DNA of 64,000 nucleotides from contig JASXTE010000009.1 of assembly GCA_030280995.1 (NCBI GenBank), positions 2,202,501 through 2,266,500 on the forward strand. Direction: 5' to 3'. Each line of letters begins with the position of its first letter. The stretch's first letter is position 1. This document shows positions 16,291-51,985 of this stretch, piece after piece. The translations under genes and the position numbers were made by a program. The notes below the pieces were generated by a model. It ran no database searches. It saw only the letters and a program-made list of their open reading frames with translations, and was not told where the DNA came from. Source of the stretch: Hemileia vastatrix. Its lineage: Eukaryota > Basidiomycota > Pucciniomycetes > Pucciniales > Zaghouaniaceae.

Positions 16291-16741
16291 TAGTAGAAAT
16301 ATCTTAAATGACACATAGTATACTAGGTCTGGAATATTATTTTAATTATAATTTTTATTTCCACAAATATATTAGAAAGAATACTATTTAAGTCCTTTTT
16401 AAAAATTTAATTAATAAAAATATAACTCTGTAAAAATATTTGCTCATAATTTTAAATTTTCTAGACAAAAGTTGATATTGAGCATTTATTAATAGAAATT
16501 TCTTATTGTTCCATAGAATAGAAAAATATAAGACAATAATCAAAAAATTTAAAGTAAGAGAATATATATATTTTATAAGGTGAAACAATAGTAATGAATT
16601 TTTTTTACATTTACGCTATTGAAGAAACTAATTTTAATATATAGGCACAAAACTTAAGCGCTAAAATAATGCACTTCCTTCAGTTATCTATCTGTATTTA
16701 GTTTTTATTAAAATGTGAGTCAACATTAATTATTAACATAA
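16291..16741. other. AT-rich upstream region of the SNF2 pseudogene
   Basis: No element or convincing coding sequence. It presumably includes the promoter of the helicase gene that starts at 16742 or 16871. Confidence 0.35.
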
Positions 16742-18280
16742 ATGAAAAATTCAATTGTAAATATTCATCGAATATTATATATTTTCTCTACTTTATTCTA
16801 TATCAAAACTTTGCTCTCATCCTTTCTTTCTTATAACTACCGCCATCACCATAAAATTCATCTAATTAAAATGTCAAATTTAAGATGTGTCAGACAATTC
16901 TCTTTAAATTTTAAACCTATTTTTCCAAGGGAAAGATCAATATTTGATGAAGTCTCCACTCCATTTATTTTGCAACAAGGAAGATCTTTAGTTCATGTTT
17001 TTGGATTATTCAATGAAGGAGAAGCAACACCTATTGGTGATCTTTCTAACAAACAGAGATACCAAATTGGAAAACTACTTGGAGAAATTGGATCTGGATC
17101 TCAAATTTTAACTGAGGAAAGGGCTTTAAATCCCCAAATACCTAATTATTTTTTTCTCTTACTTGGTTCTACTTTTAAACAGGCAGTATAGAATTTGTCA
17201 CCTCCTTTTTTGTTTGACTGATTTTATTAGTCAGGATGAAGAAGTATTTCTAAATGCTCAAATTGATTTGACACAGGATCCACACTACAATCCAACAATC
17301 TTCTTCAATATTCCTCATTTTTGTATTAAAACAACTTCTGAAATTCTTTTGACAAGAGATAATCAAATGGAAAATATATCTCTACATGGTATCAAAACAA
17401 CTCTGAAAGCGCATCAGATTCAAGCTATCAATTTTATGATAGACAATGAAAATAACTTATCAGAAAATTTAGAAAACCTGTGGAGGCATGTGGAAAACAG
17501 CTGGCTGAGAGTAGGTTCTAATAATTATTATGAACAACTTCCTGAAGAAGAGTTATCCTCTTCAGGAATTGGTTCAATTCTAGCTGATGATATTAGCTTG
17601 GGAAAGACCCACTCAACTCTTGCCCTAATTACTGCAACTCAAAGTGAAGCTAGTAGATTCAAAATCTTGGGTGGTGGAGAAGAGAAAGTTAGGACATCAG
17701 CCACTCTCATCATTTTCCCACTTGCAGCACTATCAAATTGGGTCAATGTAATAAAAACTCACATTGAAGATAATGCACTACCTTTCAAGGTTCTTTATGG
17801 GAAGGATTCAATGAAAATTGATTTTGAGGAGCTTCAGATCCAACTAGTTGTTTTGAATATCTATGAAAAAGCAAGTCCATCTTCTTAAAAGAAAATTCCT
17901 CAACCTATTCTGCCAGTAACTCATAAACTCATTTGGTACAGAATAGTTTTAGATGAGGCTCAGTAAGCATTAATTTAAATTACTAAAGTTTTTGGACATA
18001 ATATTATAAGCTAATGAAATGTTTAATGTAATTAAAAAGTTTAATCAAGAATCCCCAGTTGCAGAAGAATCAGAATATATCAGACCTGGAGGCTGAGTAT
18101 CAACTATTCTTGACAGGGACACCACTTTAGAACCATAAAACTGATCTTTAAAGCCTTATATCATTCCTCAGAATTGAAAGATGACACAAAAACTGCTTGT
18201 GGATTAATTTTCTTATGATTGGCTTAAACAGAGGAAGCTTTAGCTGAAAAAAATTGATACATACTCTCATGAATGTCATA
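16742..18280 (+). pseudogene. SNF2-family helicase-like ATPase, 5' half, interrupted by a 21-kb insertion
   Basis: Chromatin-remodelling or DEAD-like ATPase of the SNF2 family. ATG candidates are 16742 and 16871 (MSNLRCVRQF). Motifs in order: the segment before the ATPase (LKAHQIQAINFM), motif I GSILADDISLGKTHSTLALI with SLGKT where GLGKT is usual, motif Ia TLIIFPLAALSNWV, and motif II region WYRIVLDEAQ. Downstream comes LEAEYQLFLTGTPL, motif III. One or more introns are likely (a donor GTAAGC directly after DEAQ near 17964). Premature stops include TAA at 17886 and TAG/TAA where Gln codons are expected after LTGTPL. The frame runs to 18280 and continues at 39423. It was dead or dying independently of the insertion. 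Confidence 0.85.
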
Positions 18281-18654
18281 CACCACGGGAAATCTGGGGG
18301 TGAACTGCTAGCAGTTCCCTCTATTTGAAACTATCAGGTATTTGTCAGGAAACTGTTGGGAAACCATCCTGAAACTGTCAGAAATATGTTTTTAAATCTG
18401 ATAAAAAAACATTGAAAAAATAAACTGTCACAGATTGAATCCAGAACAATCCCTCCTTGAGCAGAGCTTAAGAACCACATTGAACATCAGTTAATCTCAG
18501 GTTTGGCAAAAGGTTGAACAACATCACTTAGCATACCTTAATATTCAAATATTAAACTTGAATATATGTTGCGTGTATGATATAGATGCATATGCATTTG
18601 AATTTGCATGGTGGATACTTATTGCATGCTAAAAATTGATGTGAAATGCCTATC

Positions 18655-19000
18655 TAAAGTGTATGCATAATGACTATGAAGAATAAATATGCATAAAAAA
18701 TATGCATAAAAATATGCATAAAAAATATGCATAGTGATTATGCATAAAAAATATGCATATTGAATATGCATATAATATGAATAAAAATATGCATTAAAAT
18801 ATGCATATTGAATATGCAAAAAAAAGGTGCATATACGTATATGAATAAAATATATTAATATGCATATAAATCTGTATAATGAATATGCATATGAATATGC
18901 ATAAATATGCATAATGATTGAAAAATGCAAAAAAATGATGCTTAATAAGTATATTTTATGCATAAATAGAAATATGCAATATGAATTCATATTGCATACA
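18655..19000. repeat. ATGCATA-rich low-complexity block in the 'a' end (outer copy)
   Basis: Dense copies of ATATGCATA and AAATATGCAT. The inverted counterpart is at about 34860-35245 in the inner copy. Frames across it give Tyr/Ile/His/Phe-rich peptides typical of translated low-complexity DNA. Confidence 0.8.
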
Positions 19001-22000
19001 AATAACACTGGCAAACCAACTTGACCAAAACTCATACTAAATTTTCATTCTGGACTAAAGGTGTGAGGGAAGGAAGAAAAACAGTCCAACGTTAGAAAAA
19101 TGCTACATGCACTCATTTTGTAGCAGAGCAAATGAGAAGTGCTGAATTATGGTTGGTGCCCATAATTTAGCATGATATCATAATTTTATTTAATTGTTTT
19201 CAATATTGAAAAGACTTTAGGTCGGTTGGTATGGATCTAGCTGTGCCAGGGTCTAATCTAATTATTTTAAAAATTTCTTAATAATTAATGGGTTTTAATA
19301 CAAAAACAGGTTGTATTTTTTGTGGGATATTGGATATGATAAGGTCTTTTGTAAAAAAAACATATATTGTTCCAAAATATTCCTGAATCAGATGTGGGAT
19401 TATCACTACAAAAAATTGAAGTACTATGAGCAATAAAATATATGCACAAGCAGTAAAGAAAGGACTGACTGAACCCTTTTTGTGCAGTGGGAATCATTAG
19501 AGTGGAATTGTGGATGAAAAATATAATTCATTATTACCATTTTATTTAATCAAAAAAATTATAATATTAAAAAGAACCATTGATTAATTGGTATTTGACC
19601 TTTGTGCCTCACTCATATTTATCATTTGATTGATTTTTTGTCACCATTATGTTATTAATATTATAAGTATAGTAAAAACTCGTGTGCCCAATGCATTCCG
19701 GGTGATGTTACACCTTTTATAATATTATTAAATAAAGGTAAAAAAATAGGAAAATGATTTGTTTTACAAAAAATTAATTGATATCCAAAAGCAATATGAG
19801 GGATAAAAAGGTAAAATTAAAGGGATCAAATATGAATTAAAAAATTAAATTAAAACTCCTGCCATCAAGAGCAAGTAGACATGATGGGGTGAACGCCCAC
19901 CAGTGGCACTAAACTTGGACTATAATTTCTTTTTTGTAAAAATAAAAAAAAATCCACTTGATTTTTACCAAAACTTCTGGATGACAATTTTGCCATATCA
20001 AACAACTTCTAGTGCAACTATTGAAGAAAAATTCATTTTCATTGCAATAGAGAGAATTGATCACATCAGACTGCATGTGAGTAAAAGTGTCCAGCACAAG
20101 TTCGGCCGAGCATGTGCTGGACACTTTTATGATGGAGAGTAGCTAGGGTGAAATTTTTCTTCAGTTCATCTGGTATTTCTTATAAACATGTCCACTGGTA
20201 TTTGATCTTTGTGCCTCACTCATATTTATTATTTGATTGATTTTTTGTCACCATTATGCTATTAATATTGTAAGTATAGCAAAAACTCGTGTTCCCAACG
20301 CATACCAGGTGATGTCACACCTTTTATAATATTATTAAATAAAGGTAAAAAAATATGAAAATGATTTTTTTTACAAAAAATAAATTGATATACAAAAGCA
20401 ATATGAGGGATAAAAAGGTAAAATTAAAGGAAGCAAATATGAAATAAAAAATAAAATAAAATTACTGCCATCAAGAGCAAGTAGACATGTTTGGGAGAAT
20501 GCTCACCAGTGGCACTGAACTTGGATTATAATTGCTTTTTTAAAAAACAAAAAAGTGCCAATCTGAGGTTTAACAAAACTTCAGCAGTAAAATTTAGCCA
20601 TATCAAACAACTTCTAGTGCAATGATTAAGAGAGAATTGATCACACCAGACTGCATGTGACCAAAAGTGTCCAGCACAAGTTCGGCCAAACTTGTGCTGG
20701 ACACATTTATGACAGAGAGTAGCTAGTGTAGAATTTTTCTTCAGTTAGTCTGGTATTTCTTATAAACATGTCCATTTTTACTTGATCTTTGTGCCTCACT
20801 CATATATATTATTTGATTAATTTATTGTCACGATTATATTATTAATATTATAAGTATAGAAATAACTCATGGGCCAAATGCATACCAGGTGATGTTACAC
20901 CTTTTATAATATTATGAAATAAAAGAAAAAAAAATATAAAAATGATTAGCTTTACAATAATTTAAATAGATATTAAAAAAATAGAGAAATAAAAAAGCAA
21001 AATTAATCTCAAAGAGATCAATTATGAAAAACAAAATACTAGTAAAATTCATGCTCTCAAGAGCCAGTAGAAGTGTTGAAACAAATGGGAGCCATCAGGG
21101 CTAAATTTTAATAAGTGACTTTTTTTTATAAAGATAAAAAATTATACACCTGAGGTTGGGAAGAACAACAGGTGGATGATTCTGCTAAACAAAACTACTG
21201 GTAGTGAAGTTTAATAAAAAAATGTTTTTTTGTTGCCATAGAGAGAATTGATCCCATCTGACTGCACCTGACCAAATGTGTCCAGCACAAGTTTGGCCAA
21301 ACTTGTGCTGGACACTTTTATAATGGAGAGTAGCTTGGGTGAAAATTTTCTTCAGTTCCTTCATCTTGTATTTCTCATAAACATGTCTACTGGTATTTGA
21401 TCAGTCTGTATCTTTCATATTTATCATCCGATTAATATTTTATCACCATTTTATTATTAATGTCATTAGTATAGCAAAAACTTGTGTGCCAAATGCATAC
21501 CATGTGAAGTTATAACTTCAATAATTTTTTAAAAAAGACGTAAATAAATATGGAAAGGATTGGTTTTACAAAAGTTAAGTGGAAATTTAAAAGTAAAAAG
21601 AGGAATAAAAGAGTAAAAAAAAAGTCAAAGAGTTAAAATATGAAAAAAATACTAGTAAAATTCCTGCTATCAAGAGCCAGTAGAGGTGTTAAAGCAAATG
21701 GGAGCCATTAGGGCTTAATTGTAATAAGTGACCTTTTCTTTAAAGATAAAAAATTATACACCTGATATTGGGCAGAACAGCAGGTGGATGATTCAGCTAA
21801 ACCAAACTACTTCTAGTAAAATTTGATAAAAAAAAATTTTTGTTGCCATACAGAGAATTGATCCCATCTGACTGCACATGACCAAAAGTGTCCAGCACAA
21901 GTTTGGCTGAACTTGTGCTGGACTCTTCTATGATGGAGAGCGGCTGGGGTAGAATTTTTCTTCAGTTCATCTGGTATTTCTTACAAACATATCTACTGGT

Positions 22001-23096
22001 ATTTTATCTTTGTGCCTCACTCATACATATTGTTTGATTAATTTTTTGTCTTAATTATATTATTAATTATATAAGTATAGTAAAAATTGTGTGCCAAATG
22101 CATACTGAGTGATGTTACACCTTTTATAATATTATTAAATAAATGTATAAAAATATTAAAATAATTTATTTTCAAAATTATTAATTGATATCCAAAAGCA
22201 ATATGAGGAATAAAAAATTAAGTTAAAGGGATCAAATATGAAAAAAGAAATCCAAGTATTATTCCTAATATCAAAGGCCAGTAGAGATGTTTTAGCAAAT
22301 GAGAGCCATCAGAGATAAATTTTACTAAATTGAATGTTTTTTAAAGATAAAAAATTGTGTACCTGTGGTTTGGATGAACTCTAGGTGGATAATTCAGCTA
22401 TATCAAACTACATCTAGTGAAGATTCTTATCAAATAATGTTTTTCATTGCCAAAGAGAGAGTTGATCCCATTTGACTTCACCTGACCAAGAGTGTCCAGC
22501 ACAAGTTCGGCCAAACTTGTGCTGGACACTTTTATGATGGAGAGTAGCTGGGGGGCAGGTCTTCTTCAGTGCAACTGTTATTTTTTTAAAACATATCAAC
22601 TGGTATTTGATCTTTCTGTGTTATTCAAATTTTATTATCTGATTAATTTTTTGTCTTTAGAATATTATTAATTTTTTTTAGTATAGAAAAAACTTTTGCA
22701 CCAAATGCATGCCATGTTATATTACACCTTTTATAATATTATTAAAAAATGTTAAAAAAATATGAAAATGATTTTTTTTCCAAATTATAAATTAATATCC
22801 AAATGTAACATGAGTGATAAAAAAGTAAAGTAAAAGAGATCAAATATGAAAAAGAAAAATTCAAGGAAAATTCCTGCCTTCAAGAGCCAGTAGAGGTGTT
22901 GAAACAAATGGGTGCCATCAGGGCTAAATTTGATAAAGTTAATTTTTTTTAAAGATAAAAAGTCTTTCACCTGAGGTTTGAAAAAACTCAAGGTGGATAA
23001 TTCAGCCATACCAAACTACTTCTAATGTAATTATTTAGAATTTTTTTAATTTACATTCAACAGAGAGAGTTGATCCTATCTGACTGCACCTGAACA

Positions 23097-23140
23097 AAAG
23101 TGTCCAGCACAAGTTCGGCCGAACTTGTGCTGGACACTTT
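23097..23140. other. Perfect long palindrome, type example of the array hairpin
   Basis: AAAGTGTCC through GGACACTTT with the core AAGTTCGGCCGAACTT is an uninterrupted inverted repeat of at least 44 bp with no loop; a second perfect copy is at 31917-31960. Other units are perfect over 38 bp with the alternative core GTTTGGCCAAAC (21278, 29481, 33741, 36012). A transcript or single strand would fold into a hairpin of miRNA-precursor stem length without a loop. Confidence 0.9.
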
Positions 23141-23277
23141 TATGATGGAGAGAAGCTAGGGTGGAAGTGTTTCTCAGTACATCAGTTTTTTGTTTTTCAC
23201 ATTTCTATTGGTTTTTTAACTTTTTTTATGATTCATATTTATCTTATAATTAATTTTTTGTCACCATATATATTATT

Positions 23278-24454
23278 TGTCAGTATAGTCTAGTATATAA
23301 GTATGATATAATAGTATTTATTTATGGTCCTACTACTTATTGTTAATGATTTTGTGATTAAACCTCAGTGGAAGACTAATAGAATAGTTATACTCAAATA
23401 AAACTCACAATACTTGGATTTTAATGCGTGCTTAGTGGTGGAAAATAGATGAATAAAATATAGTTATAGCTTATATAAAGATAAGATAAATTTATAGTGG
23501 CTTTATAATATATTTCTAAAGGTTAATAATTGTATAGTAGTGTTTATTGGAGTTGTAGTAATTGAATTATGATAAATAACCGTCAAAATCCCTCCTTACT
23601 TATACCCAAATCCACTGGAGTGCACAGACCTTCAATCCAGATGATGTCACTGCTATCCCCGGCAATTACAGCACTGTGAGGGCCCATCACCTCCCCATGG
23701 CGTCCACTTCAAGCAGTTTCAACACCCAGACCTCCAGTAAGGACTCTCCATCACTATTAATAATAACACTGATCCATACCATAAATAGAAAATCCAGATA
23801 AAAGCGGATACCATAAAGAAACAGGTAAAATAAATAATCAAAAAGAGATTTAATGAAACTAAAAGCATATAAAGGAAACAAATAAAATGTCCAAGCCCCC
23901 AATAACATCCCCAAGCATCCACATTAACCCAGAAACATCCTTCCAACCCATAAATCCGTGAATAACCATCCAAGGAAGTAATTTTAGTTGTCCAAACTGG
24001 GTGTATGCGCCTGATATAGGTGTCTATGCTTCTGTAGGCGTTGTGAGTACACTGATTTCGTCCATATGACCTAAAATAAGCAGGAAAACATAATTTATAG
24101 GCTATTAAGGGGCTAAAACCCACTTATATACCTAAATATACATAATATACCACATATTTCACTGAATCTGAGATTTATGTATACATATAAGCTTATGTAT
24201 GTTAATAATTACTTCATATCACTTAAGATAAGTATATTATGACTCCATTAACACCTTAATAAATATTATTAGGCCATGGATAAGCTATTTAAACTATTAT
24301 AAATTATATAATAGAATAATAATTATATATATATATAATAAAATAATATATATTATTATTTTAACCTTATTTTTAAGATATAAGCTTAATCTACTTAAGG
24401 TTATCTTATTTTAAGAATAAGAAATACTCAGTCCTAAGGATATTTAGGCTGACA
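23278..24454. mobile_element. Solo LTR, 1,177 bp, target duplication TTATT
   Basis: Starts TGTCAG and ends CTGACA, with TTATT on both sides. The inner copy of the element lacks it at the equivalent point (about 31790-31800), so it inserted in the outer copy alone. It is less AT-rich at 23590-23720 (GGGCCCATCACCTCCCCATG). The 134-codon minus-strand frame inside (24123-23719) is not supported as a gene. It was left by recombination between the two LTRs of a retrotransposon unrelated to the two gypsy elements further right. Confidence 0.85.
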
Positions 24455-26279
24455 TTATTAATGTTTCTAGTATAGCAAAAACCTGCATGCCACATTTGAA
24501 ATTGGTGATGTTACGCCTTTAATAATATTATTATATAAAGGTAAAAAAATATGAATATGTTTAGTTTTTAAAAAAATAAATTGATACTTAAAATTAAAAA
24601 GAGTAATAGAAAAGTAAAATTAAAATAAATGGGATGAAATACAAAATAAAAAATACAAGTAAAATATTTACTATCAAGAGCCAGAAGTGGTGTTGGGACA
24701 GTTGGGGACCCCTAGGTCAAGACTTGGTCTAAACTTACTTTTATGTATAGCTAACAAATTTTGAGCTGAGGTTTGGACAGACTTCCAGGGGACAATTTTA
24801 CAATATTAAACATCCTTTACTTCAATAATTGAGTGAAATATCATTTTCATTGCCATAGAGAGAATTTATCTCATATGACTTCATGTAACCAAAAGTGTCC
24901 AGCACAAGTTCGGCCAAACTTGTGTTGGACACTTTTATAATTGAGAGTAGGCATACAGCAAATCTTCTTAAACTCAAAAGGGATTTCTTATAAAAATTTC
25001 CACTGGTATTTGATCTCTCTGTGTCATTTAAATCTACCATTTTATTAATTTTTTGTCATCATTACATTATTAACATTATTACTATAGTAATAACTTGTGT
25101 GAAAAATGCAAACCAGGTGGTGTTCCACCTTTGATCATATATTATTAAATAAAGGTATAAGAGTATGAAAATTATTTATTTTAAAAATTAAAATTTGATA
25201 TCCAAAGCAATATGAGCAATAAAAAAGTAAAATAAAAGGGATAAAATAAGAAAAAAAAATCTAAGGAAAATTCCCACTATCAATAACAAGTAGAGGTGTT
25301 AGATCAAATGTGCACCACCAGGGATAAACTTGGACTAAATTTTCATTTTTTTTAAACCAAAGAAAGTGTCCTGATGATTTTTGAAAATTCATCAGGAGGA
25401 CATTTTGGCAATATCAAACTACTTATTGTGAAATGATTGAGCAAAATGTCATTTTCATTTCCATAGAGTAAATTTATCCCATCTGACTGCATGCAACCAA
25501 AAGTTTCCAGCACAAGTTTGGCCGAACTTATGATGGACACTTTTATGATGGTGAGTATCTAGGGTGCAGGTCTTCTTCAGTTCATCAAGTATTCCTTATA
25601 AACAAGTCCACTTGTGTATGATCTTTCTGTGTCGTTCATATTTATCATTTGATTCATTGTTTTTCACCATTATACTATTAATGTTATTAGTATTGAAAAA
25701 AATTATAAGCCAAATGCATACTGGGAGATGCTACATCTTTAATAATCTTATTAAATAAAAGTAAAAAAATATGAAAAGTATTAGTTTTACAAAAAATAAA
25801 TTGATATTTGAAAGCAAAATGAGGAATAAAAAAGTAAAATAAAAGTGATTAAATATGAAATTAAAGATTCAAATAAAATTTCTGCCATCAAAGAAAATTT
25901 GAGTTATCAGACAGAAATTGCACCACCAGTTCTAGATAAGGAATATATTTTCATATTTTTTAAATTAATAAAAGTGTCCACCTAAGGTTTTCAAAAAACT
26001 CAGGAGGATAGTATAGCAGTATAAAACTACTTCTTGTGCAATGATTAAGCAAAAATTCATTTTAACTTCCATTGAGTAAATTTATCCCATCTGACTGCAT
26101 GCAACCAAAAGTGTCCAGCACAAGCTCAGCTGAACTTGTGCTGGACACTTTTATGATGGAGAGTAGCTAGGGTGCAAGTCTTCTTCATTTAATCTGATAT
26201 TCATTTTAAAAATGTCTATGGGTATTTGATCTTTCTGTGTCATCCATATTTATTATTTGATTATTTTTTAGTCACCATT

Positions 26280-27850
26280 CACCACGGGAAATCTAGGGGT
26301 GAATTGCTAGCAATCCCCTCTCTTGAAATTTAGAGTGTCCCTTAAGTATGCCATGTTTATGAATACTTTATAAACATAAGTAAATTAGAGTTAGATTTAC
26401 ATTTATTCTCAGATTGATTATAGACAGAATATCAACTGATTCCAAATTATGCACAAGTTGATCCTCCAGAACTTGATTTTGGTCCTCTGATGAGAACAAA
26501 TTGAGCACAAATTGATCTAACCTAAGCTTATGCATATATAATAATTCAGGATACTTGCTCTATTAAATTTGATAATAAAATAAAATATTGATGAATTTAT
26601 ATAAAAAAAATTATCATGTAAGATATTAAATTATAAATTTAGGCATCATTGGAGGGCACATAATAGAACTTAATTATACTATGTGACACCTTAATAATGT
26701 ATTACACAGTTTGAAACAGTTTAAAAAAATGAGTCATGATGGGAAATGAAATTGCTTGGACACACTCTTTCAAAATTAATACTGACCATAATAAATAAGT
26801 ATGAAACCTTGGCATCTATCCAATAAAAGATTTTCATTCTGATAAATAGATTTTTCTCAGTTACTACCTGCTAAAAAGTGTCCTTCTGAGGTTTGTCTGA
26901 CCTTCAGGGGGGTAATTTGGCCACATCACACTACTTCTTTTTCCATGATTGACCAAAACATCATCCTAATTCCCATCTAAAGAGTTGATCTCATCTGACT
27001 GTGGCTGATCAAAGGGGTCCACCACAAGTTTAGCCAAAATTTTGTTGAACACTTTTTTGATGGATAGTGACTAACTGGTGCTTTCCGAAATTGTCCACCT
27101 CAAGTTAGGATAAACTTCAGGAGGATAAATTTATTATGAAAACAAAATTAACTGAAGAATACTTTTGCCCTAGCTACTCTGCATCATAAAAGTGTCCAAC
27201 TGAGGTTTAGTCATAATTCAGGTAGACAATTTTGGAAAGGCACAGTCTGATGGGTTTAATATCTATATATGGCGATAAGTATCAGTTTTTTATCAACATG
27301 GAACTAGAATTAATTTAATATGGCCAAAGTGTCCATCTGAAGTTTGGCCAAAATACAGGTGGAAATTTTTATGAGGATTACTTGATGAAATGAAGAAGAC
27401 TTGAAATTACTTTCTTTCATAAAATTTTCAAACTTAAGTTTATCAAAAATTGTGGTGACACTTTTGCCAGATCCAGTCATATGGCATCAACTCTCTATAT
27501 GGCAATGAGAATCAATTTTTAGTCAATCATGGAATTAGAAGTAATTTGATATGGACAAACTTTCCACCTGATTTTTGGCCAAAAATAAGTTGGAAATGTT
27601 TATGAGGAATACTAGATTAACTACAGAAGACTTGCACACTACTACTGTCCATCATAAAAGTGTCCACCAGAAGATTTCTCAAACTTGTGGTTGACACCTT
27701 TGGCCTGGTCCAGCCATATGGGATCAATTCTGCATATGGAAATGAGGATTTAATTTGGTCAATCATGGTACTAGAAGTAATTTGATATAGATAAAGTGTC
27801 CAACAAAATATTGGAAAAAAATCAGTTGAAAACTTCATTTAGTTTTTCAA
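26280..27850 (-). repeat. 'b' subterminal region of the inner copy
   Basis: Matches 37860-39422 inverted. The last 600 bp hold degenerate relatives of the palindrome and of 'gtccacctgaagtttggcc', spaced more closely than in the main array (around 27000, 27190, 27330, 27660), so the array decays towards this end. Confidence 0.75.
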
Positions 27851-27989
27851 AAAATCAATTAAGTAAAATTTTATTCCTGATGATGCCCATTTTATCCAAC
27901 ACCTCTTCTGAGCCTTGAAAGTAGGCATTTAGCTTGAATTTTGAATTTCATATAAAATCCCTATTATTCAACTTATTTCTTTTTATCCC

Positions 27990-30900
27990 TTTTTTTCTTT
28001 TAGATATCAATTAATTTTATGTAAAACAAATCATTTTCATGATTTTTTACCTGTATTTAATAGAATTATTAAAGGTGTAACATCTCCCTGTAAGCATTTG
28101 GCACATGTTTTTTTGCTATACTAATAAAAATAATAATATACTGGTAACAAAAAATTGATCAAATGATAAAATATTAATAAAACAGAAAGATCAAATACCA
28201 GTGGATATGTTTTAAAAAAATACTAGTTGCTCTGAAGAAGAGCTGCACCCTAGATACTCACCATCAAAAAAGTGTCCAGCACAAGTTTGGCTGAACTTGT
28301 GCTGGACACTTTTGGTCAGTTGCAGTCATATGAGATCGATTCTCGCTATGGCAATGAAAAAAAATTTTGGATAAAAAACTTCACTAGAAGTAGTTTTACA
28401 TAGCAAAATTTTCTACCTAGATTTCATCCAAACCACAGGTGCACAATTTTTTACTTTGAAAAAAAGTCAATTTAGTACAATTTATCCCTGATGGCTCTCA
28501 TTTTCTTCAACACCTCTACTGGCCTTTGATAGTAGGAATATTACTTGGATTTCTTTTTTCATATTTGATCCCTTTAACTTAACTTTTTACTCCTAATGTT
28601 GCTTTTGGATATCAATTAATAATTTTTAAAATAAACTATTCTCATATTTTTATACATTTATTTAATAATATTATAAATGGCATAACATCACCTGGTATGG
28701 ATTTGGCACATGAGTTTTTTATATACTTATAAAATTAATAATATAATGGCGACCAAAAATCAATCAAATGATATTAATGAGTGAGGAACAAATATAAAAT
28801 ACAAGTAGACATGTTTGTAATAAATACTAGATGAACTGAAGAAAAATTCTACCCTAGCTACTCACCATTATAAAAGTGTCCAGCACAAGCTCGGCCAAAC
28901 TTGTGCTGGACACTTATGGTCAGGTGCAGTCAGATGGGAGCAATTCTCTCTATGGAAATGAAGATAAATTTTTGATATAAAATTACACTAGAAGTAATTT
29001 GATATGGCAAAATTTTCATGCTGAAGTTTTGGTAAAGCTCAAGTGGATTTTTTTTTATTTTTACAAAAAAGAAAATTTAGTGCAAGTTTAGCCCTGATTG
29101 TTCTAATTTAATTCAACATCTCTTTTCTCTGTTTATTGCAGGAATTTAACCTTGATTTTAATTTTCATCTTTGATTTCTTTTATTTTACTTTATTCCTCT
29201 CATATTGCTTTTGGATAGAAGTTTTTTTTTTGTAAAAAAAATCATTATCATATTTTTTTACCTTTATTTAATAATATTATAAAAGGTGTAACATCACCCA
29301 GTATTCATTTGGCACACAATTTTTTGCTATACTGATAATATTAATAATATAATGGTGACAAAAAATTAATCAATTGATAAATATGAGTGAGTCACAAAGA
29401 TTTAATAACAGTGGAGATGTTTATAAGAAATTTCAGATGATTAAAAATGACTTGCACCCTGGCTACTCTTCATGATAAAAGTGTCCAGCACAAGTTTGGC
29501 CAAACTTGTGCTGGACACTTTTGGTTGCATGCCGTCAGACGCAATCAATTCTTTTTATGGAAATGAGACTGAATTATCACTCCATCATTGCACTGAAAGT
29601 AGTTTTATATAGACAAATTGTCCCCTGGAAGTTTGTCCAAACCTAAGGTAGACAATATTTTCCTTTGGTAAAAAGTAAATTTGATCCATGTTAATCTATG
29701 ATGGTGCCCATTTTTTCTGAAGCCTCTACTGGCTCATGATAGCAGAAATTATACTTAATATCTTTATTTCATTTTTGATCTCTTTAATTTTAATCTTACC
29801 CTTTTATTTATCCTTTAGCTTTTAAATATCAATTTTATTTTGGTAAAACTGATAACTTTCACATTTTTTTATATTTATTATATTATATTATTAAAGTTGT
29901 AAAATCATCCAGTGTACATTCATTACACATTTTTTTGCTATACTAAAAACATTAATAATATAATGGTGACTAAAAAATAATCAAATAATAAATATAGATG
30001 ACACAGAAAGATCAAATACCCATAGACATTTTTAAAATGAATATAAGATTAACTGAAAAGGACTTGCACCCTAGCTACTCTCCATCATAAAAGTGTCCAG
30101 CACAAGTTCAGCTGAGCTTGTGCTGGACACTTTTGGTTGCATGCAGTCAGATGGGATAAATTTACTCAATGGAAGTTAAAATGATTTTTTGCTCAATCAT
30201 TGCACAAGAAGTAGCTTTATACTGCTATACTATCCTCCTGATTTTTTGGAAAACATCAGGTGGACACTTTTATTAATTTACAAAAAAAAGAAAACATGTT
30301 CCAAAACTAAAACTGGTGGTGAAAATTTGGTCTGAAACCTCAAATTATCTTTGATGGCAGAAATTTTATTTGAATGTTTAATTTCATATTTAATCACTTT
30401 TATTTTACTTTTTTATTCCTGTTTTTGCTTTCAAATATCAATTTATTTATTGTAAAACCAATAATTTTCATATTTTTTTTACTTTCATTTAATAAGATTA
30501 TGAAAGATGTAGCATCTCCCAGTATGCATTTGGCTTAAAAATTTTTTCAATACTAATAACATTAATATTATAATGGTGAAAAACAATGAATCAAATGATA
30601 AATATGAATGACACAGAAAGATCATATACAAGTGGATTTGTTTATAAGGAATACCTGATGAACTGAAGAAGACCTGCACCCTAGATACTCACCATCATAA
30701 AAGTGTCCAGCATAAGTTTGGCCAAACTTGTGCTGGACACTTTTGGTTGCATGCAGTCAGATGGGATAAATTTACTCTATGGAAATTAAAATGAAATTTT
30801 GCTCAATCATTGCACAATAAGTAGTTTGATATTACCAAAATGTCCTCCTGATGAATTTTCAAAACTCATCAGGACACTTTCTTTGGTTTAACAAAAAAGA

Positions 30901-33900
30901 AAATATAGTGCAAGTTTAGCCCTGGTGGTGCACATTTGATCAAACACCTCTACTTGTTATTGATAGTGGGATTTTCCTTAGATTTTTTTTTCTTATTTTA
31001 TCCATTTTATTTTACTTTTTTATTGCTCATATTGCTTTGGATATCAAATTTTAATTTTTAAAATAAATAATTTTCATACTCTTATACCTTTATTTAATAA
31101 TATATGATCAAAGGTGGAACACCACCTGGTATGCATTTTTCACACAAGTTATTACTATAGTAATAATGTTAACAATATAATGATGACAAAAAATTAATCA
31201 AATGGTAAATTTAAATGACACAGAAAGATCAAATTCCAGTGGAAATGTTTATAAGAAATCCCTTTTGAGTTTAAGAAGATTTTCTGTATGCCTACTCTTA
31301 ATTATAAAAGTGTCCAGCACAAGTTCGGCCAAACTTGTGCTGGACACTTTTGGTTGCATGAAGTCATATGAGATAAATTCTCTCTATGGCAATAAAAATG
31401 ATATTTCACTCAATTATTGAAGTAAAGAATGTTTAATATTGTAAAATTGTCCCCTGGAAGTCTGTCCAAACCTCAGTTCTAAATTTGTTAGCTATACATA
31501 AAAGTAAGTTTAGACCAAGTCTTGACCTAGGGGTCCCCAACTGTCCCAACACCACTTCTGGCTCTTGATAGTAAAAAGTTTACTTGTATATTTTATTTTG
31601 TATTTGATCCCATTTATTTTCATTTTACTTTTCTATTACTCTTTTTAATTTTAAATATCAATTTATTTTTTTAAAAACTAAACATATTCATATTTTTTTA
31701 ACTTTATATAATAATATTATTAAAGTTGTAACATTACCAATTTTGCATTTGGCATGCAGGTTTTTGCTATACTAGAAACATTAATAATATATATGGTGAC
31801 AAAAAATTAATTATAAGATAAATATGAATGATAAAAAAAGTTAAAAACCCAATAGAAATGTGAAAAAAAAACTGATGTACTGAGAAACACTTCCACACTA
31901 GCTACTCTCCATCATAAAAGTGTCCAGCACAAGTTCGGCCGAACTTGTGCTGGACACTTTTGTTCAGGTGCAGTCAGATAGGATCAATTCTCTCTGTGGA
32001 AAGTAAATTAAAAAAATGCTAAATAATTACATTATAAGTAGTTTGGTATGGCTGAATTATCCACCTTGAGCTTTTCCAAACCTCAGGTGAAAAATTTTTT
32101 ATCTTTAAAAAAAAATAAATTTTATCAAATTTAGCCCTGATGGCACCCATTTGTTTCAACACCTCTACTGGCTCTTGAAGGCAGGAATTTTCCTTGAATT
32201 TTTCTTTTTCATATTTGATCTCTTTTACTTTACTTTTTTATCACTCATGTTACATTTGGATATTAATTTATAATTTGGAAAAAAATCATTTTCATATTTT
32301 TTTAACATTTTTTAATAATATTATAAAAGGTGTAATATAACATGGCATGCATTTGGTGCACAAGTTTTTTCTATACTAATAAAATTAATAATAATATAAT
32401 GACAAAAAATTAATCAGATAATAAAATATGAATAACACAGAAAGATCAAATACCAGTTGACATGTTTTAAAAAAATAACAGTTGCACTGAAGAAGACCTG
32501 CCCCCAAGCTACTCTCCATCATAAAAGTGTCCAGCAGAAGTTTGGCCGAACTTGTGCTGGACAATTTTGGTCAGGTGCAGTCAGATGGGATCAATTCTCT
32601 CTATGGAAATGAAAAAAATTATTTGATAAGAATCTTCACTAGATGTAGTTTGATATAGCTGAATTATCCACCTAGAGTTCATCCAAACCACAGGTACACA
32701 ATTTTTTATCATTAAAAAACAATCAACTAAGTACAATTTATCCCTGATTGCTCTCATTTGCTTCAACATCTCTACTGGCCTTTGATATTAGCAATAATAC
32801 TTGGAGTTTGTTTTTCATATTTGATTGCTTTAAATTAATTTTTTATTCCTCATATTGCTTTTGGATATAAATTAATAATTTTGAAAATAAATTATTTTAA
32901 TATTTTTATACATTTATTTAATAATATTATAAAAGGTGTAACATCAGTCAGTATGCATTTGGCACACAATTTTTACAATACTTATATAATTAATAATATA
33001 ATTAAGACAAAAAATTAATCAAACAATATGTATGAGTGAGGCACAAAGATAAAATACCAGTAGACATGTTTGTAAGAAATACCAGATGAACTGAAGAAAA
33101 ATTCTACCCCAGCCGCTCTCCATCATAGAAGAGTCCAGCACAAGTTCAGCCAAACTTGTGCTGGACACTTTTGGTCATGTGCAGTCAGATGGGATCAATT
33201 CTCTGTATAGCAACAAAAAATTATTTTTATCAAATTTCACTAGAAGTAGTTTGGTTTAGCTGAATCATCCACCTGCTGTTCTGCCCAATATCAGGTGTAT
33301 AATTTTTTATCTTTAAAGAAAAGGTCACTTATTACAATTAAGCCCTGATGGCTCCCAATTGCTTTAACACCTCTACTGGCTCTTGAAAGCAGGAATTTTA
33401 CCAGTATTTTTTTCATATTTTAACTCTTTGACTTTTATTTTACTCTTTTATTCCTCTTTTTACTTTTAAATTTCTATTTAATTTTTGTAAAACTAATCCT
33501 TTCCATATTTATTTACGTCTATTTTAAAAAATTATTGAAGGTTTAACTTCACATGGTATGCATTTGGCACACAAGTTTTTGCTATACTAATAACATTAAT
33601 AATATAATGGTGATAAAATATTAATCGGATGATATATATGAAAGATACAGACTGATCAAATACCAGTAGACATGTTTATGAGAAATACAAGATGAACAAA
33701 CTGAAGAAAATTTCCACCCAAGCTACTCTCCATCATAAAAGTGTCCAGCACAAGTTTGGCCAAACTTGTGCTGGACACCTTTAGTCACGTGCAGTCAGAT
33801 GGGATCAATTCTCTATATGGCAACAAAAAAACATTTTTTTATTAAACTTCACTACAAGCAGTTTTGTTTAGCTGAATCATCCACCTGTTGTTCTTCCCAA

Positions 33901-34280
33901 CCTCAGGTGTATAATTTTTTATCTTTAAAAAAAAGGTCACTTATTACAATTTAGCCCTGATGGCCCCCATTTTTTTCAACACTTCTACAGGCTTTTGAGT
34001 GCAAGAATTTTACTAGTATTTTGTTTTTCATAATTGATCTCTTTGAGATTAATTTTACCTTTTTATCCCTCATATTGCTTTTGGATATCAATTTATTTTT
34101 TGTAAAACAAATCATTTTCATATTTTTTTACCTTTATTTAATAATATTATAAAAGGTGGAACATCACCCGGTATGCATTTGGCACACGAGTTTTTGCTAT
34201 ACTTATAATATTAATAACATAATGGTGACAAAAATCAATCAAATGATAAATATGAGTGAGGCACAAAGGTCAAATACCAA
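27990..34280 (-). repeat. Tandem array of about 606-bp palindrome units, inner copy (reverse orientation)
   Basis: Palindromes start at 28272, 28876, 29481, 30093, 30703, 31310, 31920, 32527, 33131 and 33741, spacing 603-612 bp. The flanks read 'ctagctactctccatcataaaa' on the left, the inverse of the outer copy. Individual units can be matched to particular outer units: the one near 31500 with 'ggggtccccaactgtccc' matches 24700. Confidence 0.9.
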
Positions 34281-34859
34281 TTAATCAATAGTTCTTTTTA
34301 ATATTATAAATTTTTTGATTAAAAAAAATGGTAATAATGAATTATATATTTCATCCACAATTCCACTCTAATGATTCCCACTGCACAAAAATGATTCACT
34401 TGGTCCTTTCTTTACTGCTTGTGCATATATTTTATTGCCCACAGTACTACAATTTTATATAGTGATTATCCCACATCTGATTCAGGAATATTTTGGAACA
34501 ATATATGTTTTTTTTACAAAAGACCTTATCATATCCAATATCCCACAAAAAATACAACCTGTTTTTGTATTAAAACCCATTAATTATTAAGAAATTTTTA
34601 AAATAATTAGATTAGACCCTGGCACAGCTAGATCCATACCAACTGACCTAAAGTCTTTTCAATATTGAAAACAATTAAATAAAATTATGATACCATACTA
34701 AATTATGGGCACCAACCATAATTCAGCACTACTCATTAGCTCTGCTACAAAATGAGTGTATGTAGCATTTTTCTAACGTCGGACTGTTTTTCTTCCTTCG
34801 CTCACACCTTTAGTCCAGAATGAAAATTTAGTATGAGTTTTGGTCAAAATGGTTTGCCA

Positions 34860-35245
34860 GTGTTATCTGTATGCAATATGAATTCATATTGCATATTTTT
34901 ATTTATGCATAAAATATACTCGTTAAGCATCATTTTTTTTGCATTTTTCAATAATTATGCATATTTATGCATATTCATATGCATATTCATTATACAGATT
35001 TATATGCATATTAATATATTTTATTCATATACGTATATGCACCTTTTTTTGCATATTCAATATGCATATTTTTAATGCATATTCAATATGCATATTTTTT
35101 ATGCATAATCACTATGCATATTTTTTATGCATATTTTTATGCATATTTTTTATGCATATTTATTCTTCACAGTCATTATGCATACACTTTAGATAGGCAT
35201 TTCACATCAATTTTTAGCATGCAATAAGTATCCACCATGCAAATT
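34860..35245. repeat. ATGCATA-rich block in the 'a' end (inner copy)
   Basis: Inverted counterpart of 18655-19000, at the same distance from its terminus at 35566. Confidence 0.8.
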
Positions 35246-35566
35246 CAAATGCATATGCATCTATATCATACACGCAACATATATTCAAGTTTAATATTTG
35301 AATATTAAGGTATGCTAAGTGATGTTGTTCAACCTTTTGCCAAACCTGAGATTAACTGATGTTCAATGTGGTTCATAAGCTCTGCTCAAGGAGGGATTGT
35401 TCTGGATTCAATCTGTGACAGTTTATTTTTTCAATGTTTTTTTATCAGATTTAAAAACATCTTTCTGACAGTTTCAGGATGGTTTCCCAACAGTTTCCTG
35501 ACAAATTCCAAATAGTTTCAAAAAGAGGGAACTGCTAGCAGTTCACCCCCAGATTTCCCGTGGTGA

Positions 35567-38060
35567 TTATATTATCAATGTTTTTAGTATAGAAAAAACA
35601 TGTGTACTGAATGTAAACTGTGTGATTTTAAAACTTTAATAATATTATATAATAAATGTAAAAAAATGTGAAAGTTATCAGTTTTATCAAAATAAAATTG
35701 ATATTTAAAAGCTAAAGGATAAATAAAAGGGTAAAATTAAAATTAAAGAGATCAAACATAAAATAAAGAAATTAAGTATAATTTTTGCTATGATGAGCCA
35801 GTAGAGGCTTCAGAAAAAAAGGGCACCATCATAGCTTAACATGGATCAAATTTACTTTTTACCAAAGTAAAAAATTGTCTACCTTAGGTTTGGACAAACT
35901 TCCGGGGGACAATTTGTCCATATAAAACTACTTTCAGTGCAATGATGGAGTGATCATTCAGTCTCATTTCCATAAAAAGAATTGATTGCATCTGACGGCA
36001 TACAACCAAAAGTATCCAGCACAAGTTTGGCCAAACTTGTGCTGGACACTTTTATCATGGAGAGTAGCCAGGGTGCAAGTCATTTTAAATCATCTGGAAT
36101 TTCTTGTAAAAGTGTCCGCTGTTATTAAATCTTTGTGCCTCACTCATATTTATCAATTGATTAATTTTTTGTCACCATTATATTATTAATATTATCAGTA
36201 TAGCAAAAACTTGTGTGCCAAATGAATACTGGGTGATGTTACACCTTTTATAATATTATTAAATAAAGATAAATAAATATGAAAATGATTTATTTTACAA
36301 AAAATAAACTTCTATCCAAAAGCAATATAAGAGGAATAAAGTAAAATAAAAGAAATCAAAGATGAAAATTAAAATCCAACTTAAATTCCTGCCATAAACA
36401 GAAAAAAGAGATGTTGAATCAAATTAGCACAATCACGGCTAAACTTGCACTAAATTTTCTTTTTTGTAAAAGTAAAAAAAAAATCCACGTGAGCTTTACC
36501 AAAACTTCAGCATGAAAATTTTTCCATATCAAACTACTTCTAGTGTAATTTTTTATCAAAAATTCATCTTCATTTCCATATAGAGAATTGCTCCCATCTG
36601 ACTGCACCTGACTATAAGTGTCCAGCACAAGTTTGGCTGAACATGTGCTGGACACTTTTATGATGGAGAGTAGCTAGGGTAGAATTTTTCTTTAGTTCAT
36701 CTAGTATTTCTTACAAACATGTCTAATGGTATTTTATCTTTGTTCCTCACTCATAAATATCATTTGATTAATTTTTTGGTTGCCATTATATTATTAATTT
36801 TATAAGTATCACCACACAATCAGGGATGAACACCTTTCAGCAGAACAGTTTTAGGTGGGTGTTCAAGTAGAGTTCAGTATGGGTTTAATATGAGTTCAGT
36901 CTGAGTTCCATCTGAGTTCCATCTGAGTTCAGGTTGAGGACTTGCTAGCAAGTCCACCCCCTATATTGCCTAGTGTATAGAAAAAACTCATGTGCCAAAT
37001 GCATACCAGGTGATGTTATGCCATTTATAATATTATTAAATAAATGTATAAAAATATTAAAATAATTTATTTTAAAAATTATTAATTGATATCCAAAAGA
37101 AATATTAGGAATAAAAAATTAAGTTAAAGTGATCAAATTTGAAAAAAGAAATCCAAGTAATAATCCTACTATCAAAGGCCTGTAGAGGTGTTGAAGCAAA
37201 TGAGAGCCACTAGGGATAAATTGTACTAAATTGACTTTTTTTTAAAGATAAAAAATTGTGCACCTGTGGTTTAGATGAACTCTTGGTAGAAATTTTGGCT
37301 ATGTAAAACTACTTCTAGTGAAGTTTTTTATCAAATTATTTTTTTCATTGCCATAGCAAGAATTGATCTCATATGACTGCACCTGACCAAAAGTGTCCAG
37401 CACAAGTTCAGCCAAACTTGTGCTAGACACTTTTTTGATGGTGAGTATCTAGGTTGCAGCTCTTCTTCAGTGCAACTGGTATTTTTTTAAAACATATCCA
37501 CTGGTATTTGATCTTTCTGTTTTATTATTATTTTATCATTTGATCAATTTTTTGTCACCAGTATATTATTATTTTTATCAGTATAGCAAAAAAACATGTG
37601 CCAAATGCTTACAGGGTGATGTTAAAGCTTTAATAATTTTATTAAATACAGGTAAAAAATTATGAAAATTATTTGTTTTACATAAAATTAATTGATATCT
37701 AAAAGAAAAAAAGGGATAAAAAGAAATAGGTTGAATAAAACAGATTTTATATGAAATTAAAAATTCAAGCTATATGTCTACTTTCAAGGCTCAGAAGAGG
37801 TGTTGGATAAAATGGGCATCATCAGGAATAAAATTGTACTTAATTTGATTTTTTGAAAAACTAAATTAAGTTTTCAACTGATTTTTTTCCAATATTTAGT
37901 TAAACACTTTGTCTATATCAAATTATTTCTAGTACCATGATTGACCAAATTAAATCCTCATTTCCATATGCAGAATTGATCCCATATGGCTGGACCAGGC
38001 CAAAGGTGTCAACCACAAGTTTGAGAATTCTTCTGGTGGACACTTTTATGATGGAAAGTA
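35567..38060 (+). repeat. Continuation of the outer 606-bp array
   Basis: Palindromes start at 36012, 36618 and 37393, in the same orientation as 19600-26279, with a degenerate one near 38010. The interval 36618-37393 is long because of the 166-bp MITE at 36810. Confidence 0.85.
36810..36975. mobile_element. 166-bp CACTA-type MITE, target duplication TAT
   Basis: Left end CACCACACAATCAGGGATGA, right end (minus) CACTAGGCAATATAGGGGGT followed by ACTTGCTAGCAAGT. TAT is on both sides; deleting the element and one TAT gives 'aagtatagaaaaaactc', the normal wording of the 606-bp unit. It is the compact form of the MITE at 9347, with the same GAACTCAGAT-type subterminal repeats. Confidence 0.9.
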
Positions 38061-39422
38061 GTAGGGTGCAGGTCTTCTTTAGTTAATCTAGTATTCCTTA
38101 TAAACATATCCAACTTATTTTCAGCCAAAAATCAGGTGGAAAGTTTGTCCATATCAAATTACTTCTAATGCCATGATTGACTAAAAATTGATTCTCATTG
38201 CCATATAGAGAGTTGATCCCATATGACTGGATCTGGCGAAAGTGTCACCACAATTTTTGATAAGCTTAAGTTTTAAAATGTTATGATGGAAAGTAATTGC
38301 AAGTATTCTTCATTTCATCAAGTAATCCTCACAAATATTTCCACCTTTTTTTCGCCAAACATCAGGTGGACACTTTGGCCATATTTAATTGATTCTAGTT
38401 CCATTTTGATAAAAACTGATACTTATTGCCATATATAGATATTAAACCCATCAGACTGTGCCTTTCCAAAAGTGTCTACCTGAATTATGACTAAACCTCA
38501 GTTGGACACTTTTATGATGCAGAGTAGCTAGGGCAAAAGTATTCTTCAGTTGATTTGGTATTCATAATAAATTTATCCTCCTGAAGTTTAGCCTAACTTC
38601 AGGTGGACAATTTCGGAAAGCACCAGTTAGTCACTATCCTTTAAAAAAGTGTTAACCAAAATTTTGGCTAAACTTGTGGTGGACCCCTTTGATCAGCCAC
38701 AGTCAGATGAGATCAACTCTTTAGATGGGAAGTAGGATGATGTTTTGGTCAATCATGGAAAAAGAAGTAGTGTGATGTGGCCAAATTACCCCCCTGAAGG
38801 TCAGACAAACCTCAGAAGGACACTTTTTAGCAGGGAGTAACTGAGAAAAATCCATTTATCAGAAGGAAAATCTTTTATTGGATAGATGCCAAGGTTTCAT
38901 ACTTGTGTATTATGGTCAGTATTAATTATGAAAGTGTCTGTCCAAGCAATTTCATTGCCCATCATGACACATTTTGTTTTAAATGTTTCAAACTGTGTGA
39001 TACAGTATTAAGGTTTCACATAGTATAATTAAGTTCTATTAAGTGCCCTCCTATGATGCCTAAATATATAATTAAATATATTACATAATAATTTTTCTTA
39101 TATAAATTCATCAATATTTTATTTTATTATCAAATTTAATAGAGCAAGTATCCTGAATTATTATATATGGATAAGCTTAGGTTAAATCAATTTGTGCTCA
39201 ATTTGTGCTCAACAGAGGATCAAAATCAAGTTCTGGAGGATCAACTTGTGCATAATTTGTAATCAGTTGATAATCTGTCTATAATCAACCTGAGAATAAA
39301 TGTAAATCTAACTCTAATTTACTTATGTTTATAAAGTATTCATAAACCTGGCATAATTAAGGGACACTCTAAATTTCAAGAGAGGGGATTGCTAGAAATC
39401 CACCCCTAGATTTCTCGTGGTG
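38061..39422 (+). repeat. 'b' subterminal region of the outer copy
   Basis: Inverse of 26280-27640. It includes the block 'cactctaaatttcaagagagggg' directly inside the terminus. No coding sequence. Confidence 0.8.
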
Positions 39423-40300
39423 ATATGCCTGTGGAGGACCAAAGAAGCAATCTTATTACTTACTCTAAAAATTGAGCAGTAAATATATGTAGAATTAGCA
39501 GATCCTTGGAACTCAAAACTTACCAAGCTTCAAGAACGTTTTTCTGAGTATTATTGGCCATCTCGAAACACCACCCTCCCTTGGGACTCAGCTGAGTTTC
39601 TCTGAGAACTTTCAATTTTACAGAAATTTTGTAACCACCCTGTCTACAAAAACCCAGCTCAACCTCCAAAATTTAATTTCATGTGGAAATATTCAGGAAA
39701 GATTATACATCTAATCAGTCATTTAGAAAATTTCTTAAAGGGAGAAAGGGGGATAATTTGTCTTAAGGCTTTTATATTTTCAGAATGTGCAGATTTTTTT
39801 GAAATGTAAGTAATTCTATTAATTACCTCAGTAAGTTATTTTTTGCTTAATCAACATCTCAATATTCTATCTGTTGAAACAATATAAAAAAGTCTTTATA
39901 TGACCTTGAAATTAGCTACACAGAGCTTTTAGAAAGGTTGAACATAAAAAAAGGGATGAATATCTGGAAAAATTCAAAAATGATGAAATATGTCAAGTTT
40001 TGCTGGGTATTATCAAGGCTTCAGGAGTTGGAATAGACTTGAGGTTTGGGCAAAATGCATATATAATGGTAAGTCAAACAGTGTTATATTGAAATAAAAA
40101 AGGTTAAACAGAAAATTTGTTTAATATATTGAAACAGGAGCCTAATTGGAATCCAGAAGTTGAACAGCAAGCAGATGATTGTCTGTATAGAATGGGCCAA
40201 CAAAATGAAGTTCATGTACTCAAGTATTTTGTAAGCAGAAGTATTGAATTCAGCACTTATTAGATAGAAAGAAAAAAGATTGAGCGATCAATGTAGGTGA
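39423..40300 (+). pseudogene. SNF2-family helicase-like ATPase, 3' half
   Basis: Continues the frame cut at 18280: across the junction, with one ATA removed, the reading is LMNVICLWRTKEAILL, the conserved '.ICLRRTKE' element. Then LQERFSEYYWPSRNT, LSILQKFCNHPVY, SGKIIHLISHLENFLKGERG and FSECADFFEM; after an intron near 39806-39910 come LLGIIKASGVGIDLRFGQNAY and, after another near 40070-40140, EPNWNPEVEQQADDCLYRMGQQ, helicase motifs V and VI. It ends near YIERKKIERS (about 40290). Stops at several sites (for example after DSAEFL) confirm a pseudogene. Confidence 0.85.
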
Positions 40301-40613
40301 AATTTTCTTTGTATAAAGTTGCATCATAGCTAAAAAATTTATTTATTCTAATTTTTTAAGGCTAAGTGTCCCAAACATTAGAAACAAGGAAAATGAGTCT
40401 GCTAGATTATTGATTTGTGAATTCATTAATAACGCACATTAGAATTTGAAATTTGTTGAAGTATGTAGGAAATGTTTGTTGGGGCTTGACAATTAAGAAG
40501 TCTTTATTGTTGAGGATTGAGAGAAGCTAGATATAAAGAAGAATAGCAGTCACTTGGCAAGCCCCTGGGGACTGAAAAAGAATTAAAGTGAGTCTCAATT
40601 GAGAATACCAAAT
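40301..40613. other. Short region between convergent pseudogenes
   Basis: It lies between the end of the SNF2 relic (plus) and the stop of the minus-strand pseudogene at 40614. No feature recognised. Confidence 0.35.
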
Positions 40614-41198
40614 TTAATCTATCATATAATGCCAAGTTGTTAAGTATTTCTCCTGAATAAGGGGAATTTTCTCAGACTTGAATGTGTTTATGGTCAAGAT
40701 TTTGTGCAAGTCTTGAGAATTCTTCAGATCTCCATGGCAATAAAATCCGCTTATAAGAACCTTCATCATAAATTTCAGTGTCTGAGCAACATTTGACATT
40801 TTTAAAAAGATTCTAATAGGTTTCACCACTTGGCGGTTGTTTAAGAAGGTGAGTTCAGTTAAAATAATTCTGAAAAATATTGTCAAAACTATATAAGCCT
40901 GTGGAAAAAATAAGAGAAAAATATTATTTCTTACTTTATTTTTTATTTTATTTTTTTACTTTCTTATTTCAACTTTTTCACAGAAACTAACACAATCTTT
41001 TCTGAGTCTTAACTTATCAGAATAACCTATAAACCAACGGTGAAGAACACCCATTTGATTTAGGTAAAAAATATAAGTAGAGTCCATTGAATAAGAAACC
41101 AAATAATTAGTTTTCAAAGCTTTATCCCAGTGATTAATGATAATTTTTGCCAAAAGTTGATTCCACTTGTGATACCAATCAAAATTTCAAGCAAACAT
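40614..41198 (-). pseudogene. Hypothetical host gene, 3' part, interrupted by gypsy element 1
   Basis: Unknown protein on the minus strand. 41198-40957 reads FDWYHKWNQLLAKIIINHWD and continues through MGVLHRWFIGYSDKLRLRKD to a TAA. A second exon probably follows at 40898-40614 after a CCACAG acceptor (AYIVLTIFFRIILTEL..., ending at 40614); the donor before it is not clear. The upstream part of the frame lies beyond the retrotransposon at 53058-53265. Removing element 1 with one target duplication gives a continuous frame, except for one TGA where Trp would fit (FA-stop-NFDW). Confidence 0.6.
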
Positions 41199-42271: not shown

Positions 42272-42351
42272 ACGTGGGGTTTACAGATCTGTTAGTTCTT
42301 TGGAATCTCTGTTTCCTGTGATTGGCTCTTTCTGTGATTTGGACTTGAAGA

Positions 42352-46263: not shown

Positions 46264-46293
46264 ACTGGCAGTTTTGATGGTAGGGTTGTACCC

Positions 46294-51983: not shown

Positions 51984-51985
51984 TA

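Follow-up and report, generated by a model that had tools for sequence, protein, structure and literature searches.

Transposons of the EnSpm (CACTA) group in rust fungi end in CAC...GTG and are flanked by 3-bp target duplications (PMC12730594), and in A. psidii CACTA elements are second to Ty3 in abundance (PMC12774611). In the Spm/En system, TNPA recognises subterminal repeats, and for defective elements the proteins may be supplied in trans; the right border of the soybean element Tgmt* contains 12 possible stem-loops (PMC2613891). These statements, like the other comparisons with published elements below, rest on excerpts of the cited sources. Here we describe a 64,000-nucleotide stretch from Hemileia vastatrix (contig JASXTE010000009.1, positions 2,202,501 to 2,266,500; hereafter the window) that holds two copies of a giant CACTA-type element without recognisable genes, one inside the other. 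We consider it probable that this element (the giant) is a non-autonomous EnSpm/CACTA transposon whose palindrome array shares a motif with a related element carrying SNF2-like and tnp2 genes (the partner), and that the partner would bind the giant and move it in trans.

The giant resembles the described rust EnSpm/CACTA elements in its CAC...GTG termini, its 3-bp duplications and its likely association with a transposase of the EnSpm group (PMC12730594). Unlike the giant, the rust families carry genes, including TET/JBP, according to the excerpts (PMC12730594, PMC12774611). PMC12730594 nowhere uses the term SNF2, and the literature searched yielded no gene-free, 10-kb, repeat-built form. Maize En/Spm, its defective derivatives and Tgmt* likewise have tnp2, a DNA-binding protein, encoded by the element, that recognises subterminal repeats, and movement of defective elements in trans (PMC2613891), the last two of which would also apply here. 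However, the Tgmt* repeats are restricted to the terminal 159 and 732 bp, whereas those of the giant are spread through its interior at 606-bp spacing. A Chenopodium CACTA element also has an internal tandem array (32.5 copies of 171 bp), but it has kept its coding region and its array is described as a captured satellite, with no mention of subterminal motifs in the excerpts (PMC8978399). In Drosophila, Tetris is non-autonomous with internal tandem repeats, and the repeats of Galileo hold additional transposase binding sites; the tandem repeats of these foldback elements lie in long inverted repeats, whereas the array of the giant is central and its two ends, termed a and b, share roughly 50 bp (PMC4079207). 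We rejected a foldback structure for the giant itself: in a self-comparison of the window, a and b did not form an inverted pair over 250 bp, and the long pairs were a-a and b-b between copies. Precedents thus exist for parts of the arrangement, namely the captured satellite in a plant CACTA and the foldback elements whose internal repeats hold extra binding sites. In the openly licensed literature we found no account of a gene-free CACTA element whose array body carries its partner's palindrome, and no fungal CACTA element with such an array.

Termini beginning CACCACG were present at 18281 (+), 26280 (+), 35565 (-) and 39422 (-), the last being the final base of the right b end. Allowing up to three mismatches, the terminus pattern matched five times in the window, at the four giant ends and at 15979, and in none of 100 shuffles. 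The sequence-only reading had placed these four termini and two target duplications, all of which we confirmed in the sequence, and had paired a with a and b with b; the inverted arms were indeed 98% alike for a-a (18281-18778 and 35068-35565) and 94% for b-b (26279-26729 and 38973-39423). One a-to-b giant, flanked by ATA, contains an inverted copy of itself, flanked by ATT. With 26280-35565 and one ATT taken out, the outer copy (its end set at 39423, one base past the true end) was aligned with the reverse complement of the inner copy; the two were collinear end to end, with 8,854 of 9,280 aligned positions identical (95.4%) and differences comprising 166 transitions and 260 transversions. 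The earlier proposal that one copy had jumped into the other in reverse is borne out by this result.

Both empty sites could be rebuilt. The inner copy is gap-free over the position matching the insertion point (29962-29964). The outer site is continuous at two related loci elsewhere in the genome, with 171 identities over 198 positions and no gap in the alignment to C19, and no gap in the printed part of the alignment to C2. The frame that the sequence-only reading had restored at the outer site as SNF2 belongs to a related transposon and not to an ordinary host gene. The inner/outer alignment contained four gaps of at least 12 bases: 22 bp of slippage in the TATGCATA microsatellite, a 1,186-bp block of two units missing from the inner copy, 1,182 bp representing a foreign insertion plus its duplication, and 169 bp representing a mini-element plus its duplication. 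Because the best match to the two-unit block elsewhere in either array reached only about 76% overall (93.8% for one 224-bp piece), the inner copy more probably lost it than the outer copy recently gained it. The outer giant measured 11,853 bp without the inner copy and one ATT, and about 10.5 kb once the two small insertions were also taken out. The earlier account of the 21 kb as two copies holds for the nesting, but part of the outer copy's extra length comes from two further insertions.

The genome assembly that we searched comprises 747.6 Mb in 791 contigs. The exact 24-base terminus occurred 1,756 times (859 + 897), compared with 0 + 0 for the reversed control, and the a end gave 40 scored matches at 99-100% out of 1,879 first-look candidates. 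The first 100 termini listed comprised 46 of b type, 43 of a type, eight of AG type and three others; if these are representative, the genome would hold some 750 a and 800 b ends. Among the same 100 termini, ten pairs of convergent neighbours lay within 15 kb (nine a/b and one variant/b), and 19 lay within 40 kb. None was a-a or b-b at either distance, pairings that as natural ends would have spoken against the sequence-only reading. Two other neighbour pairs within 15 kb were not convergent; in one, both members were b ends pointing the same way. All ten convergent pairs had matching duplications; nine were giants of 7,991-11,053 bp and one was a 2,284-bp relative. From the ten a-end loci fetched first, we recovered a b end in four, at 10,481, 10,458, 9,943 and 9,851 bp, three of them with matching duplications.

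In total we read 14 complete elements, 13 giants (8.0-11.1 kb) and the 2,284-bp relative, and matching 3-bp duplications flanked 13 of the 14, as the sequence-only reading had expected of genomic copies with an a and a b end. The giants contained 8-13 strong palindromes each, and five near-standard copies and the inner copy were 95.4-97.4% alike. Several traits of EnSpm/CACTA elements recurred: CAC...GTG termini in both window giants and all 14 complete elements, 3-bp duplications in both window giants and both window mini-elements as well, and a short terminal inverted repeat, with 40 of the first 45 bases matching between the a and b ends of the giant.

The absence of recognisable genes was upheld. 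The longest frame in the 14 complete elements was 80-133 aa. Twelve stop-to-stop open reading frames (ORFs) of at least 75 aa overlap the outer element, and the eight that we scanned (seven in the giants and one in the 1.18-kb insertion) matched no Pfam family. The longest frame of the outer copy (141 aa) runs through the TATGCATA field and had no Pfam match; that of the inner copy (89 aa) was equalled or exceeded in 73 of 100 simulated sequences. Searches for Rfam families at the gathering threshold and for tRNAs found none, and neither the terminus (viral and prokaryote collections) nor the palindrome (viral contigs) had any match.

From its a end, the giant consists of the terminus, a TATGCATA field, the 606-bp units and the b region. 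TATGCATA occurs 28 times in the window against 1.6 expected; besides the outer field, the inner copy has a mirror field at 34904-35184 with 13 copies and one more copy at 26529. Twelve unit anchors were placed in the outer array and 11 in the inner, with unit lengths of 604-615 bp and one of 580. We aligned 19 units (ten inner, nine outer), excluding two outer intervals of more than 650 bp that hold insertions. Mean identity among units of the inner array was 74.4%, whereas seven position-matched inner/outer pairs were 92-97% identical; judged from this difference, movement involves the entire array, and the divergence among its units predates that of the two copies.

About one 46-bp palindrome is present per unit. 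The two copies contain 24 better matches, of which we aligned 22; the two excluded lie close to the b end and scored lower (32 and 33 of 42). Mean column identity of the aligned palindromes was 93%, and no other part of the unit was as well conserved (92% for the palindrome among inner units, against a unit mean of 74%). In many units a second, weak match follows or precedes the first at about 137 bp. Candidates for subterminal repeats in this system are the TATGCATA field on the a side of the giant, the palindromes through its interior, and a palindrome cluster in the C19 copy of the partner.

Comparison with other loci shows that the outer giant lies within the SNF2-like gene of a related transposon, decayed in the window. 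The fifth terminus of the window, at 15979, is of AG type, and the sequence that follows it is 73% like the a end of the giant over 268 bp. Two AG-type loci (C2:5840185 and C19:4726166; eight AG ends were listed) match 15979-18280 and 39423-41199 at about 90%, across the insertion site of the giant. An ordinary host SNF2 gene, which we had first accepted from the Pfam result, was dropped because this gene is also carried by loci elsewhere that have a CACTA end of the same type. The window frame is decayed and contains stops; the Pfam SNF2 profile (positions 137-288) scored 45.4 bits over the joined flanks; taken singly, the left flank scored 35.8 and the right flank had no match. The C19 copy has an SNF2 domain (PF00176, 87.7 bits) and, downstream, a Transposase_21/tnp2 domain (PF02992, 41.3 bits, cut-off 28.6) in the one transposase open frame examined; a later SNF2 piece in the C2 copy scored 21.2, below the cut-off of 24.9. 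The right-hand SNF2 exon matched SNF2 helicases in PDB (best E 1.4e-4), and the left exon had no match in the protein collection, prokaryote contigs or PDB. The transposase piece had four matches, three of them named (Puccinia sorghi once, Austropuccinia psidii twice), at 39-48% identity. Because the two domains share the C19 locus and the window pieces keep the C19 order, up to C19 position 6180, we infer that a single element carries both SNF2 and tnp2. This pairing of an SNF2-type ATPase with a downstream tnp2 may itself be new, and an SNF2 gene carried by a CACTA element is of interest in its own right. A second stretch, at window positions 1-4532, matches the transposase part of the partner (87% to 6159-10694 of the C19 locus).

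The giant and the partner have their termini and the palindrome in common. At the a end, 29 of 30 terminal bases are the same in the giant and C19, and the b end of the giant is 84.9% identical to the a end of the partner over 53 bp. The far part of the C19 copy contains 13 palindromes in 1.5 kb, spaced by 102 or 136-139 bp and scoring 36-41 of 42, compared with best scores of 22-24 in five simulated sequences. With the palindromes masked, nothing significant remained between this cluster and the giant, the best leftovers being 16-base half-palindromes (E 0.016). A palindrome kept amid changed surroundings is what a putative binding site would look like. The 2,284-bp relative (C19:7112234-7114517, L047; duplication ACC) joins the first 1.1 kb of the partner, four palindromes and a b end like that of the giant (29 of 30 terminal bases the same; 84% over 259 bp), and looks like a natural deletion derivative.

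Taken together, these data suggest the following mechanism. The giant, in its common form of about 10.5 kb, has a and b ends that differ subterminally and share an inverted repeat of roughly 50 bp, with about 12-13 units of 606 bp between them, each bearing about one palindrome. The terminus and the palindromes would be binding sites for proteins of the partner, which would cut and paste the giant in trans, leaving 3-bp target duplications. The array would thereby spread out the partner's subterminal motif, and the number of palindromes would presumably matter. In the window, a first giant entered such a partner element in its SNF2 gene, and a second giant later entered the first, in reverse.

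Several observations weigh against this mechanism. CAC ends and 3-bp duplications do not identify the acting transposase. SNF2 and tnp2 occur together at one locus only (C19), where the tnp2 match spans only part of the profile and no b end was found within 21 kb; the partner pieces in the window end short of the tnp2 domain. Without masking, matches between the cluster and the giant extend up to about 104-111 bp (77-81%), longer than the palindrome. Covariation between palindrome pairs did not go beyond that in shuffles, and changes since the inner/outer split (11 of 322 palindrome sites, 218 of 3,933 elsewhere in the unit) were not clearly slower in the palindrome and do not demonstrate present constraint on it in these two copies. 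One complete element of the 14 (C50a) lacks a matching duplication. Finally, in six of the first ten a-end loci retrieved, the 11.5-14 kb examined contained no b end: they resembled the reference copy for 1.1-9.5 kb, after which the match ended or was broken by other DNA, which includes long open frames (part of one, 446 aa, was scanned and matched no Pfam family).

A more specific version is that the giant is a parasite of the SNF2-plus-tnp2 CACTA element, its body turned into a field of the partner's putative binding palindromes, one per 606 bp, with the SNF2 remodeller of the partner opening chromatin for both. We put this forward tentatively and think it may well be wrong; if true, the array would be a selected transposition module rather than a passive satellite. 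The array may also be a landing pad for insertions: three independent events in the outer copy (at 26277-26279, 23273-23277 and 36807-36809) all lie no more than 24 bp from one common point in the 606-bp unit, which has a chance of 0.005 under uniform targets, a clustering that was spotted post hoc.

Among the alternatives, the interior could be an ordinary genomic satellite captured once by a CACTA element, with a palindrome that plays no part in transposition. Such capture is on record in a plant (PMC8978399), the differences in unit number resemble unequal exchange, and outside the palindrome the unit is unlike the partner's cluster; however, the clustering of the palindrome 13 times in the partner copy and four times in the short derivative, and its standing as the most conserved part of the unit, make this explanation unlikely. 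We give somewhat less credit still to the idea that the palindrome is a hairpin-RNA or silencing feature instead of a transposase site. In its favour, the one copy tested forms a strong hairpin as single-stranded DNA (-24.1 kcal/mol, z -8.8), but a cluster spaced by 102 and 137 bp in the far part of a transposase-bearing element resembles CACTA subterminal repeats, and the right border of Tgmt* has possible stem-loops too (PMC2613891). An origin of the a-b-a-b order by inversion or recombination between elements, for which long inverted repeats able to recombine are present, can be dismissed, because inversion between a ends would break the collinearity seen across the junction after excision and because each element has its own matching duplication.

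Under the trans-mobilisation reading, the giant is a large and abundant transposon that lacks genes and is built of repeats; apart from its ends and one palindrome, it has little in common, as far as tested, with the element that is its likely master. The system makes it testable whether tandem arrays in transposons are passive or serve transposition, and it connects the origin of satellites and mobilisation in trans with the growth of a genome of 748 Mb. The coordinates of all main features are given in Table 1.

Table 1. Positions of the giant elements, their parts and the partner element in the window
Feature	Position	Strand	Remarks
Start of related gene-carrying CACTA element (partner), SNF2-like gene (decayed)	15979..18280	+	89.5% to C19:4726166 onward
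ATA, left target duplication of outer giant	18278..18280	.	
Outer giant element	18281..39422	+	a end left, b end right
a-side subterminal TATGCATA field	18662..18964	+	14 exact copies
Left part of outer 606-bp array	19634..26279	+	resumes 35569 to about 38 kb
46-bp palindrome, one example	23096..23141	+	21-base arms, 4-base centre; about one per unit
Separate insertion, 1,177 bp	23278..24454	.	ends TGTCAG...CTGACA, duplication TTATT
ATT, target duplication left of inner giant	26277..26279	.	
Inner giant element	26280..35565	-	inverted, 9,286 bp
Inner 606-bp array	28154..34235	-	11 unit anchors
Internal empty site	29962..29964	-	inner-copy equivalent of insertion point, uninterrupted
ATT, target duplication right of inner giant	35566..35568	.	
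CACTA-type mini-element, 166 bp	36810..36975	.	duplication TAT
ATA, right target duplication of outer giant	39423..39425	.	
Same partner element after giant insertion, rest of SNF2-like gene	39423..41199	+	
Further partner pieces	53057..54508	+	Gypsy-type DNA either side

The surroundings contain further repeats. Two related Gypsy-type long terminal repeat (LTR) copies lie in opposite orientation at 41199-53061 and 54502-64000, with pieces 83-91% alike; the partner element is broken up by the first and, apparently, by the second. The best named matches of the Gypsy protein were mostly from rusts; other basidiomycetes ranked lower, and among the top records was one that bears the label of a bacterial metagenome bin. 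A comparison of window positions 40500-48000 with plasmids gave no match. A 900-bp AAAAAT array (about 150 copies, 98% matches) occupies 48159-49055, and two tandem arrays with a 160-bp period, at 12153-12491 and 12523-12921, are seemingly mutual inverses. A second CACTA-type mini-element, of 261 bp with AAT duplications, is present at 9347-9607. The left end of the 166-bp element is without the CTAG palindrome. In the eight CACTA-type termini compared, CTAG lies 27 bases from the tip, inside a palindrome whose arms co-vary between families, as judged by eye.

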